Below, one piece after another: positions 4,041 to 9,018 of a stretch of 50,130 bases of DNA. The DNA comes from SAR202 cluster bacterium AG-426-M11 (GTDB taxonomy: Bacteria; Chloroflexota; Dehalococcoidia; Lucifugimonadales; UBA826). Position numbers and translations under genes: made by a program. How positions within the stretch are numbered: position 1 is the stretch's first letter; each line of letters opens with the position of its first letter. The notes under the pieces are model-generated. The model saw nothing but the letters and a program-made list of their open reading frames with translations. It did no database searches and was not told the DNA's origin. The stretch is from assembly GCA_003213095.1 (NCBI GenBank), contig QCNV01000009.1:1-50130 (forward strand), given 5' to 3'.

Positions 4041-4418
4041 ATGAACAGAGAAGAAATATTACAAGCATTGAAAGACTTACCAGTAATTGAACTGGCAGGT
4101 TTAGTTAAAGATTTAGAAGAAGAATTTGGCGTTAGTGCTGTAGCTGCAGCACCTGTTGCTGTTGCAGCAGCGCCTGCTGCAGGAGATTCTTCAGGAGCGG
4201 CAGAGCAAGAAGAATTCACAGTTACATTAAAAGAAGTTGGTGACAATAAAATTAATGTGATTAAAGCTGTTAGAGCTGCTACTTCTCTAGGATTAAAAGA
4301 AGCTAAGGATTTAGTTGAATCTGCACCTGCTCCAATTAAAGAAGGAGTGGGTAAGGATGATGCTGATGCTTTGAAGAAAGACTTAGAAGAAGCCGGAGCA
4401 ACTGTAGAATTATCTTAG
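4041..4418 (+). CDS. rplL: 50S ribosomal protein L7/L12
   Basis: This is the stalk protein that recruits translational GTPases. Of the 125 residues, an N-terminal dimerisation helix pair comes first. An alanine-rich hinge follows (about 33-52), then the C-terminal domain with the conserved [20 protein letters not shown] segment. It has a good Shine-Dalgarno (GGAGAAA). The gene ends two bases from the convergent larA-like gene, and I see no clear terminator hairpin between them. Confidence 0.97.
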
Positions 4419-5687: not shown

Positions 5688-6773
5688 TTATACTATTTCT
5701 TTTCTAAGTAATGCTTCACATAAATGGGCCGTGTCCACTAAATCTGGGATGGTAACAAATTCACGTTTTGTGTGCATACCTGTAACTGCCATACCAATGA
5801 CTACCGCATCAATATTGTTAAGTTTAAAGACATTTCCGTCAGTTCCTCCTCCTGATTCAACATAATTTGGAGTAAGGCCTAAGCTATTGAGTGATTCATT
5901 TACCCTGCGTCTTACAGGATCGTCTTCAGAAATGGTGTATGTTTCAAATTGTTTGTGAAGATGAGTGTTTAAATTTGCCTCTGGATATTTCGTTTTAATA
6001 GATTGAACAATTTCTGTAATTTCACTTTGAATCTCGTCCAATTTTTCTATGTTAGTACTTCTAAACTCGCCCGTGATAGTTGTAGAATCTGCTACTGTAT
6101 TTCTAGTAGAGCCTCCTTCTATCAATCCAATATTGAAAGTCGTGTTTTTATCTAATCTTCCTTGTGGTAATTTTGTAATTAAGTCAGCGGCGATCCTGAT
6201 AGCAGATAATCCTTTTTCAGGTTCTACTCCAGCATGCGCTGATCTGCCTGTGATTTCTATGATGAATCCCATATATGTGGGGCTAGATATAGTCATTGTG
6301 CTGGCAGGACCTTCTCCGTCAAATACTATAGCTTCTTTGGCAGAAATTAATGAAAAATCCAAATTTTCAGCTCCAACTAATCCTATTTCTTCTTCTCTAG
6401 TAAAAACTACTTCCACTGGAGGGATTTGATGGTGGTCTTCAAAAATAGATTGAAGCCCCTCAAGTATAGCGCTTACCCCCGCCTTGGCATCTCCACCTAG
6501 AATAGTTGTGCCATCAGAAACAATTTTGTCTTGTTGAATTTGGGGTTTTATTCCTCTTCCGGGCTCAACTGTATCCATATGTCCAGATAAAATTATTTGT
6601 GGTTTACCTGAAGATTTTGCAATCAAGTTTCCGTATGAATCACGTTGAGTTTTTAATCCTAAATTTTCTAGAAAATCAATTAAGAATAAGGCTACATTTT
6701 CTTCTTCTCCTGAAGGGCTATCAATTTGAACTAGATCGCAAAAAGTTTTGATTAGTCTTTCTTTATTTATCAT
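5688..6773 (-). CDS. M20-family metallopeptidase (PepT-like)
   Basis: This is a zinc-dependent exopeptidase or amidohydrolase of the M20 family, closest in appearance to the PepT-like/YqjE group. Metal ligands are visible: H65 and D67 in H-M-D-T-V, bridging D95 in G-G-D-A-K-A-G, the catalytic E-E pair near 128-129, and D152 in F-D-G-E-G. The dimerisation domain starts near G-R-S-A-H-A-G. The length is 361 residues. It is the first gene of a two-gene unit with the LarA homologue and is divergent from the putative selenoprotein. The substrate is unknown. A shared role in taking up small peptides or hydroxy/amino acids is only inference. Confidence 0.85.
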   Translation of the reverse strand: MINKERLIKTFCDLVQIDSPSGEEENVALFLIDFLENLGLKTQRDSYGNLIAKSSGKPQIILSGHMDTVEPGRGIKPQIQQDKIVSDGTTILGGDAKAGVSAILEGLQSIFEDHHQIPPVEVVFTREEEIGLVGAENLDFSLISAKEAIVFDGEGPASTMTISSPTYMGFIIEITGRSAHAGVEPEKGLSAIRIAADLITKLPQGRLDKNTTFNIGLIEGGSTRNTVADSTTITGEFRSTNIEKLDEIQSEITEIVQSIKTKYPEANLNTHLHKQFETYTISEDDPVRRRVNESLNSLGLTPNYVESGGGTDGNVFKLNNIDAVVIGMAVTGMHTKREFVTIPDLVDTAHLCEALLRKEIV

Positions 6774-6803: not shown

Positions 6804-7292
6804 ATGGTTAAATTGTTACTGATTATATTATTTATATTTAATGGGTGCTCTCAAGCTAGTTTACCTCAAATAGATACAAAAGAAACTTTACCTGAAATTT
6901 CACTAATTACTGAAACGGGAGAAATTTCCTCTAAAGATTTTCTCGATGATAATAGACCAGAATTTTTATTATTTATTTCGCCATTTTGAGGTACATGTGT
7001 TTCCGAGTTACGGAAATTGTCAAATAATGATCAAGGTCTCTCAGACATTTCAAACATTTACATTATTGCAATGAATTCTGGTTTTACAATTGAGACAATT
7101 AAAAACCTTTCTAATGGGCATCCTGAATGGAAGTATGCAATTCCCAAAGATGATTCTACATTGAAAATTATTTCAGGTTTAACAAGGTCGACTAAAATTT
7201 TAGTCGATTTAGAGAATAATGTGATTGGGAGGTATAAAATGGGATTTTGGGATGTTAATCAATGGATTGAAATATTAAAAGAACCTGTTTAA
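6804..7292 (+). CDS. Putative selenocysteine-containing thioredoxin-fold lipoprotein
   Basis: One reading frame runs from ATG 6804 to TAA 7292, broken only by TGA at 6987-6989. Reading that TGA as selenocysteine gives a 162-residue protein. It has a lipoprotein signal (hydrophobic stretch ending in lipobox Cys15) and a redoxin domain with Sec62-G-T-Cys65. This UxxC sits exactly where thioredoxin/TlpA/MauD-like proteins have CxxC: the context F-L-L-F-I-S-P-F-U-G-T-C resembles the S-P-T-C-P-V-C of MauD. A hairpin of the bacterial SECIS type follows the TGA. The C-terminal half (ILVDLENNVIGRYKMGF) keeps the fold's last strands. The likely role is an envelope-anchored thiol/peroxide oxidoreductase. 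The alternative is a pseudogene or base-call error of Cys TGT/TGC. The stop-free frame on both sides and the hairpin argue against that. Confidence 0.72.
6990..7020 (+). promoter_or_regulatory. Putative bacterial SECIS element
   Basis: Directly after the in-frame TGA there is a perfect six-base-pair stem, TTTCCG (7000-7005)/CGGAAA (7011-7016), with loop AGTTA (7006-7010). A G-U pair and a lower ACA/TGT helix (6993-6995/7018-7020) can extend it across a three-base bulge. The loop has G then U at its second and third positions, and that G lies 18 bases after the TGA. In the E. coli fdhF SECIS the SelB-recognised G-U lies at nearly the same distance (about 19-21). No covariance search was possible. 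Confidence 0.65.
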
Positions 7293-8983
7293 TTTATATA
7301 TTTATTTGACAATGGCATTCGTCTATCTCGATCAAAATTTTTCGCAGTGATTTTTATTCCTGGAGCTGATTGACGTCTTTTGTATTCGTTTTTGTCTACT
7401 AATTTAATCACATGGTTGATAATATCGTTATCAAATCCCATAGTCTGTATTTCATAAGTGCTGAAATCCTTTTCTACGTATAATTCTAAAATTTTGTCAA
7501 GAATTTCATAAGGAGGTAGACTATCTGAATCTTTTTGGTCAAACTTAAGTTCTGCGCTGGGTTCTTTAGTGATAATTGATTCTGGAATAATCTCTTTTTT
7601 GTATTTTAGATTTATATAATTGCTGATTTTGTACACTAAAGTTTTAGGAACGTCTTTAATAACAGCAAATCCTCCTGCCATATCTCCATAAATTGTTGCA
7701 TATCCCACTGCCATTTCACTTTTATTTCCTGTAGTTAAGACTAAATATCCAAACTTGTTTGAAAGTGCCATTACTAAAGCCCCTCTGATTCTTGATTGTA
7801 AATTTTCCTCTGCTACTCCCCAATTAGTATTTTTAAAATCTTCAGATAATGTGGATTCATATGTTGAGAAAATGTCTTCAATAGAAATTTCATTTAAATT
7901 AATTCCTAGATTAATGCATAATTGATTTGCATCACTTTTACTACTTTGTGATGAAAATCTAGATGGAAGATAGACACATCTGACATTTTCAGGGCCTAAT
8001 GCTAGTGAAGCTATAGTTGCAACCAATGCAGAGTCAATTCCCCCAGATAATGCTATTAAAACCTTTGAAAATCCTGTTTTTTGAACATAGTCTTTTGTTC
8101 CTAGTATCAATGCTTGAAGTATCTGATCTTCTTCGATACAGGATTCTTGTGTTGTATTAAATTTTTCTAGTATGTGCTTTTTATTTTTGGAGGTTTTGAT
8201 ATTAATTGAGTTAGTTGAATAAGTAATTGATTGAGAGCGGTCTTGATTTTGATGTTCATCTAAATCGTAAACTAATAGTTTTTCAGTGAATTGAGGTCCT
8301 ATTACTTGTATTTTTCCATCAAAATTGATGAACATACTCCCGCCATCAAAGACGAGTTCGTCTTGTCCTCCAACCATGTTTACATATGCTATATTGACCT
8401 TATTTTCTTTAGCTCTTTTTATTAATAGTCTTTTTCTTTCTTCTATTTTCCCAATTTGGAATGGTGAACCATTAATATTCAGAATAGTGGAAACTCCACT
8501 AGCAGCTAAATTTTTAGTAGGATTTGGGTGCCATATATCTTCACAAATATTGATTCCTACTGTCGAATTTTCTAAATTTATCAAACTATGAGAGTGCCCT
8601 GAAGAAAAATAGCGTTTTTCATCAAAGACACCATAATTAGGCAGATAAATTTTCTTTTGAGTTCCTAATAACTGTTGATTATGAGAAATTGCAGCTGAGT
8701 TAAAAATCTTCTTGTTTTCTTTTTCTACAAATCCATATATGGCTATGATGTTTGATGTATGTTTTGCAACCTCTTTAGCTGCTTTAATATTATCTTCAAT
8801 AAAATGAGATTTGAGCAATAAATCTTCTGGGGGATATCCTGTAATTGATAATTCAGGAAAAACTATGATATCTGAATTTACTTTCTCAGCTTTTTTAATA
8901 AATTTTTTTATTTTTAAGACATTCCCTGTTAAATCACCAACTGTAGGATTAATTTGTGCCAGAGCTATTCTTAATTTACTCAA
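7289..8983 (-). CDS. nadE: Glutamine-dependent NAD+ synthetase
   Basis: NadE makes NAD+ from nicotinate adenine dinucleotide, ATP and glutamine. The N-terminal nitrilase-type glutaminase domain (about 1-260) shows its Glu (PELSITGYPPEDLL), Lys (KIYLPNYGVFDEKRYF) and Cys (NICEDIWHP). The C-terminal ATP-pyrophosphatase domain has the P-loop ALSGGIDSALVATIA. TTG at 8983 is preferred because GGAGAAG lies just ahead. An in-frame TTG at 8995 has no such site. This gives 564 residues, a usual length for the two-domain enzyme. Its last bases overlap the convergent lipoprotein gene by four. Confidence 0.93.
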   Translation of the reverse strand: MSKLRIALAQINPTVGDLTGNVLKIKKFIKKAEKVNSDIIVFPELSITGYPPEDLLLKSHFIEDNIKAAKEVAKHTSNIIAIYGFVEKENKKIFNSAAISHNQQLLGTQKKIYLPNYGVFDEKRYFSSGHSHSLINLENSTVGINICEDIWHPNPTKNLAASGVSTILNINGSPFQIGKIEERKRLLIKRAKENKVNIAYVNMVGGQDELVFDGGSMFINFDGKIQVIGPQFTEKLLVYDLDEHQNQDRSQSITYSTNSINIKTSKNKKHILEKFNTTQESCIEEDQILQALILGTKDYVQKTGFSKVLIALSGGIDSALVATIASLALGPENVRCVYLPSRFSSQSSKSDANQLCINLGINLNEISIEDIFSTYESTLSEDFKNTNWGVAEENLQSRIRGALVMALSNKFGYLVLTTGNKSEMAVGYATIYGDMAGGFAVIKDVPKTLVYKISNYINLKYKKEIIPESIITKEPSAELKFDQKDSDSLPPYEILDKILELYVEKDFSTYEIQTMGFDNDIINHVIKLVDKNEYKRRQSAPGIKITAKNFDRDRRMPLSNKYIN

Positions 8984-9018
8984 AATCTTCTCCAAAATAA
9001 AAGTGAAGAAATTGTAAT

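Follow-up and report, generated by a model that had tools for sequence, protein, structure and literature searches.

A very probably selenocysteine-containing and probably envelope-anchored redoxin encoded across the SAR202 order of the Chloroflexota

SAR202 bacteria are abundant in the ocean. The window analysed here is the whole of contig C9, 50,130 bases, from one of their genomes (1.16 Mb in 50 contigs, 78% complete), and a single frame on its forward strand raises the question of whether one TGA ends a protein or specifies a residue within it. The frame, 6804–7292, translates as MVKLLLIILFIFNGC...SPF-TGA-GTC...EPV; it holds a single in-frame TGA, at 6987–6989, ahead of a TAA stop at 7290–7292. 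A sequence-only reading of this DNA had noted that the TGA takes the place of the first Cys in a CxxC motif (SPF-TGA-GTC), as retranslation confirms, and had proposed a selenium-dependent, lipid-anchored thiol oxidoreductase. On one side the gene is flanked by a divergent M20-like peptidase ORF (5688–6773, minus strand) and on the other by an NAD synthetase-like ORF (7289–8995, minus strand) whose end overlaps it by 4 bases, both names being taken from reading the sequence. Neighbours are inconsistent across 11 loci in which ORFs were judged by eye, and no functional partner emerges from them. In a profile search of contigs, the homologues at same-genus and same-family level lie in SAR202 cluster and Dehalococcoidia genomes. 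The features that matter for the argument are as follows.

6804–7292, forward strand: predicted selenoprotein gene, 162 amino acids with U62 and a TAA stop (from the frame, and from the same TGA in two same-genus genomes at 80–82% amino acid identity).
6804–6848, forward strand: putative signal peptide with a lipobox-like end (FNG-C), Cys15 (codon 6846–6848) being the likely lipid-modified residue (by eye; relatives have similar ends).
6987–6989, forward strand: TGA, predicted selenocysteine codon U62, first residue of the U-G-T-C motif (homologue column; coding-type change on both sides relative to G002).
6996–6998, forward strand: codon of the predicted resolving residue Cys65, the second of the UxxC pair, invariant in the homologue alignment.
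6999–7017, forward strand: predicted bSECIS hairpin, stem 7000–7005/7011–7016, G-U pair 6999/7017, loop 7006–7010 (AGUUA) with G7007 (compensatory changes, invariant loop GUU).
7188–7196, forward strand: S129-T-K131, Ser at the thioredoxin/ResA cis-proline position followed by conserved Thr-Lys (ResA profile alignment; column composition in 118 homologues).

The codons that relatives carry at the active-site column speak directly to the question. After removal of duplicates from the fetched copies, 118 distinct homologous copies from the same order could be compared there: 111 have TGA, five TGT, one TGC, and one TGG. Homologues had been expected to hold Cys or Sec at this column, and 111 TGA and six Cys codons, with TGG the single exception, bear that out. 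Matches were present in 31 of the 60 related genomes searched; the best match contains exactly one internal TGA in 28 of them, and the column is Cys in the other three (G038, G046, and G056). An order-level profile search of 250 genomes likewise brought up numerous strong matches that contain one TGA. The same feature occurs in independent assemblies, including the single-cell genome AC-647-P02, and is therefore not a sequencing error; recurring in 111 distinct copies from many such assemblies, the TGA is genuine rather than a misread TGT or TGC. A one-base change would be enough to convert a Cys codon to TGA by mutation or misassembly, leaving a truncated product of 61 amino acids, but this explanation is refuted by the conservation of the codon, and purifying selection beyond the TGA, a covarying SECIS, and the presence of Sec machinery (all described below) also oppose it. 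We give it practically no weight.

The one TGG codon, which would specify Trp, lies in L136 (G249:C282:6434-6859), where the SECIS stem is intact and a tandem neighbour keeps TGA; a recent mutation or an assembly error is the reading we offer for it. Tandem TGA-containing redoxin genes or domains recur in the group, with two in many relatives and three in G196 (loci with neighbouring TGA paralogues are L106, L105, L021, L018, L142, L156, L157, L158, L132, and L135). Of 161 genomes sampled from the phylum, just one from outside the order, G305, gave a strong TGA-containing match (G305:C301:17221-17643), for which transfer or a deeper origin could account. A search for a phage copy of the gene found none.

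Sequence change around the codon is of the kind expected in a translated region. When the whole window was scanned against the same-genus genome G002, 19 in-frame TGAs with open flanks proved to be conserved, most of the others being antisense to known ORFs, judged by position; the frame holding the TGA at 6987 is not antisense to another ORF. Over 25 codons on each side of it, differences from G002 at codon positions 1, 2, and 3 number 1, 1, and 10 upstream and 1, 0, and 10 downstream. Between G001 and G002, synonymous codon changes outnumber nonsynonymous ones by 31 to 2 in the 100 codons past the TGA. By these comparisons the region 3′ of the TGA is clearly under strong purifying selection at the protein level.

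Immediately downstream lies the hairpin that the sequence-only reading described, and its geometry is as claimed: a perfect 6-bp stem (7000–7005/7011–7016) closing a 5-nt loop, AGUUA, with the G of its G-U (7007) 18 nt past the TGA. Taken alone, its folding energy is unexceptional (z of −0.55 against shuffles), and we judge the hairpin real because of comparison across homologues rather than because of energy. With the T of the TGA numbered 0, positions 13–18/24–29 form the stem and 19–23 the loop. In a set of 103 distinct Sec-type 40-mers, no sequence is mismatched at pair 17/25 (89 have C-G there and 14 U-A), pairing is kept at 16/26 in 102 and at 18/24 in all 103, and loop positions 20–22 are G-U-U without exception; the outer pairs are looser, about 76–83% paired. 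Overall, 91% of stem cells are paired, where shuffles give 73% (maximum 77%). The true stem comes first in a ranking of the 280 stems that could form. Eight coordinated changes at 17/25 can be placed on the full tree; a sign test for independent covariation of this pair draws on only five supported pairs, all five of which agree (p 0.06). Published bSECIS criteria specify a loop of 3–9 nt, an upper stem of 4–16 bp, a UGA-to-loop distance of 16–37 nt, a G at loop position 1 or 2 with G or U after it, and a free energy no higher than −7.5 kcal/mol (PMC13188914). The window hairpin has the published geometry (5-nt loop, 6–7 bp, G at loop position 2 and then U, 16-nt spacing), and at −6.8 kcal/mol over 44 nt and −8.5 over 57 nt its energy is borderline. 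Scanned against Rfam, the site yielded chance hits only and no SECIS family.

The third base of codon 6 after the UGA stays G even where Ala or Ser replaces Glu; the Leu/Phe codon that follows always starts with TT and never with CT; and codon 8 is Gln (CAG, once CAA) only where codon 5 ends in T, being otherwise mostly the Arg codon CGG. In these patterns the SECIS stem overrides the protein, forcing amino acid choices upon it. All six Cys copies, by comparison, have at most four of seven stem pairs left.

The genome itself encodes most of the apparatus that such a codon would require. Both selA (516 bits) and selD (386 bits) are present, as is a tRNA with anticodon TCA that ARAGORN calls tRNA-Sec; no selB above the cut-off was found in this 78% complete assembly. 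Contig C34 of G002 matches the window without a break up to 56271, and selB lies at 56386; in G001 the window's end corresponds to C2:3926 and selB lies at 4041. In both same-genus genomes selB is thus found 115 bases past the position equivalent to the window's last base, 50130, and its absence is therefore most simply an artefact of the contig break. Of the 28 genomes with a TGA copy, only G000 and G009 (55% complete) have no selB over the cut-off. The Sec machinery that the sequence-only reading had called for is accordingly present as selA, selD, and tRNA-Sec, with selB expected just beyond the contig end.

The selD gene (C17:7692-8612; L037 1336-2535, minus strand) has an in-frame TGA of its own at the catalytic position, SCAG-TGA-ASK, and is probably a second selenoprotein gene of this genome. 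It closes with a TGA that looks like a normal stop, so the codon has not been reassigned globally. Genome-wide reading of TGA as, for example, Trp would find an echo in the TGG of L136, but genes such as selD stop naturally at TGA, the substitutes for TGA in the other homologues are Cys, and a cognate SECIS and tRNA-Sec exist; reassignment, too, we regard as having a negligible chance of being correct. We conclude that the TGA at 6987–6989 is almost certainly decoded as selenocysteine, as far as comparison of genomes can establish it. The UGA would be decoded by Sec-tRNA(Sec) carried by SelB bound to the hairpin, which begins some 10 nt past the UGA.

The genomes G046 and G056 carry Cys copies and have neither selB nor tRNA-Sec; in the third Cys lineage, family f24, the one member tested, G038, has kept both. 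Members of the f24 clade (L028, L055, L057, and L064) have Cys at the column and have lost the SECIS. On the tree, which has no root and is weakly resolved, the Cys copies sit at three points among the Sec copies, a distribution that fits repeated Sec-to-Cys replacement.

Where does the protein act? The N-terminus of the window protein, MVKLLLIILFIFNGC, ends its signal in FNG-C, and relatives end theirs in FTGC, FNAC, IALAC, LAAAC, or IISC; judged by eye, the lipoboxes of the relatives are the better ones. Many relatives continue with a linker rich in Pro, Ala, and Thr. The protein is likely an extracytoplasmic lipoprotein, and the lipid anchor proposed earlier is to be taken at that strength, as something suggested by N-termini compared by eye.

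The fold is more readily assigned than the family. AlphaFold2, supplied with the family alignment, gave a model with pLDDT 86.5 and pTM 0.84, whose top structural matches by VIA-align are Aquifex aq_2194 and ResA (Z 14–15, rmsd about 2.5 over 130–137 residues). Sco (Z 13–14), AhpE, Tpx, Bcp, and DsbE/CcmG come within about 2 Z of these, and fold alone therefore cannot separate the families; no GPx appears among the structural matches listed. Profile search favours the thioredoxin-like protein 2m72 and ResA (E of 2e-16 for ResA). Conserved columns comprise UxxC, a Glu three residues past the Cys in most members (CxxCxxE), a Trp close to the C-terminus, and R/Q-S-T-K, whose S-T-K could conceivably resemble the WNFxKFL segment of GPx. 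The window protein stays below the cut-offs of all NCBIfam and Pfam models; the earlier reader, too, had recognised no named family for it. Against Pfam Redoxin (PF08534) the protein scores 14.8 bits where the gathering cut-off is 26.6, with homologues reaching E of 6e-14; it has no match to the ResA model at E of 1 or below, and the best ResA score in the family, from a Cys relative, is 51.9 bits against a cut-off of 170.

The ResA, CcmG (DsbE), and TlpA proteins share with this family a common fold, an extracytoplasmic anchor, and CxxC followed by Glu, and they provide the best structural and profile matches. The SAR202 protein differs in having Sec for the first Cys and Ser or Ala for the cis-proline (by sequence alignment to ResA, 82% of homologues have Ser here and 12% have Ala), and the family scores far below the cut-offs of the curated ResA and DsbE models. 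In the various groups with a thioredoxin fold this proline is kept more strictly than the CxxC motif, and peroxiredoxins carry Arg in its place (PMC2757866). Peroxiredoxins such as AhpE, BCP, and Tpx have the same fold with an N-terminal extension and account for weak Pfam hits, but their nucleophile sits at the opposite end of the motif, and the Arg is absent from the SAR202 protein. With Ser or Ala at the cis-proline position and no peroxiredoxin-type Arg, the protein is a member of the thioredoxin fold that fits neither the ResA/TlpA family nor the peroxiredoxins cleanly. Beside one Sec redoxin, on the opposite strand, G016 encodes a Cys-type TlpA/DsbE-like domain with an apparent cis-proline (GLPVTFF; L163 4660-5676).

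In the broad sense, we consider the product very probably to be a Sec-containing, envelope-located UxxC thiol oxidoreductase. The Sec in the sequence-only reading's interpretation stands; the oxidoreductase part follows from the UxxC/CxxC motif and the fold and is a prediction, and the missing cis-proline cautions against ordinary ResA/TlpA chemistry. As a whole that interpretation largely holds, and what was found of the machinery, the TGA site, and the homologues did not refute it. We suggest that Sec62 would act as the attacking nucleophile, forming a mixed (seleno)disulfide with an oxidised substrate; that Cys65 would resolve it to an intramolecular selenenylsulfide; and that a thiol donor in the envelope would then re-reduce the protein. 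Net thiol-disulfide reduction or repair in an oxic envelope is, by a slight preference, the function we favour, ahead of peroxide reduction. Such a reductase cycle is not assured, because Ser replaces the cis-proline that CcmG/ResA-type proteins need for re-reduction by their membrane partner (PMC5909903).

Two other activities deserve consideration. Sec62 could reduce hydroperoxides in the manner of Prx or GPx, with Cys65 serving only to resolve, and this fits the prominence of AhpC-TSA (21 of 25 homologues) and Redoxin (16 of 25) among the weak Pfam hits, the AhpE, Tpx, and Bcp structures lying within about 1–2 Z of ResA, and a cis-proline position that is not Pro. We nevertheless hold it to be a minority possibility, perhaps one to be taken seriously: the Sec is at the N-terminal position of the motif where peroxiredoxins use the C-terminal one, Ser or Ala stands where they have Arg (PMC2757866), and the motif is UxxC, against the UxxT listed for GPx-like selenoproteins (PMC13188914). 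Alternatively, a UxxC without cis-proline might bind metal or reduce arsenic, mercury, or selenium species, a suggestion prompted by a report, as cited in PMC2757866 (its reference 59), that cis-proline prevents metal binding by CxxC, and by the structural closeness of the Sco copper proteins. A Sco-type ligand would require His, however, and there is none among the strongly conserved columns; the adjoining ORFs, judged by eye, include no recognised metal gene. We think metal or metalloid handling improbable.

Redoxin-, TlpA-, and thioredoxin-like selenoproteins with UxxC are an established kind in marine data (PMC13188914, Table 1; PMC2398784). The marine UxxC groups (Redoxin family protein, PF08534 UxxC; thiol-disulfide isomerase-like, cd02966 UxxC; GOS_C, NF045500) have in common with the SAR202 family a thioredoxin fold, the motif, a SECIS directly past the UGA, and a marine source, and yet the SAR202 family gives no hit to NF045500 and falls below the cut-offs of other selenoprotein models. 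NF053656, the redoxin_TUGYCR (seleno)protein, is another thioredoxin-fold selenoprotein family; it matches 3 of 25 members weakly, with a best E of only 1.7e-4, and its TUGYCR motif is absent here. Our best reading, with published families compared by description only, is a new family-level member of the known UxxC redoxin selenoproteins. Literature searches found no paper joining SAR202 with selenoproteins. More tentatively, and with some doubt, we speculate that an order-wide family in which Sec-x-x-Cys is paired with a Ser-Thr-Lys replacing the cis-proline may carry out a cell-surface redox chemistry distinct from that of ResA/TlpA reductases, peroxiredoxins, and GPx.

Annotation pipelines that read TGA as a stop will truncate these genes. 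The SECIS, lying within the active-site helix, visibly shapes the choice of residues there, Arg accompanying Ser or Ala codons that end in C and Gln those that end in T, and the family offers a clean natural case of RNA structure constraining protein sequence. For the organisms themselves, the findings indicate that selenium-dependent redox chemistry in the envelope is widespread and often duplicated in the SAR202 order, with genomes that do not decode Sec carrying Cys instead.
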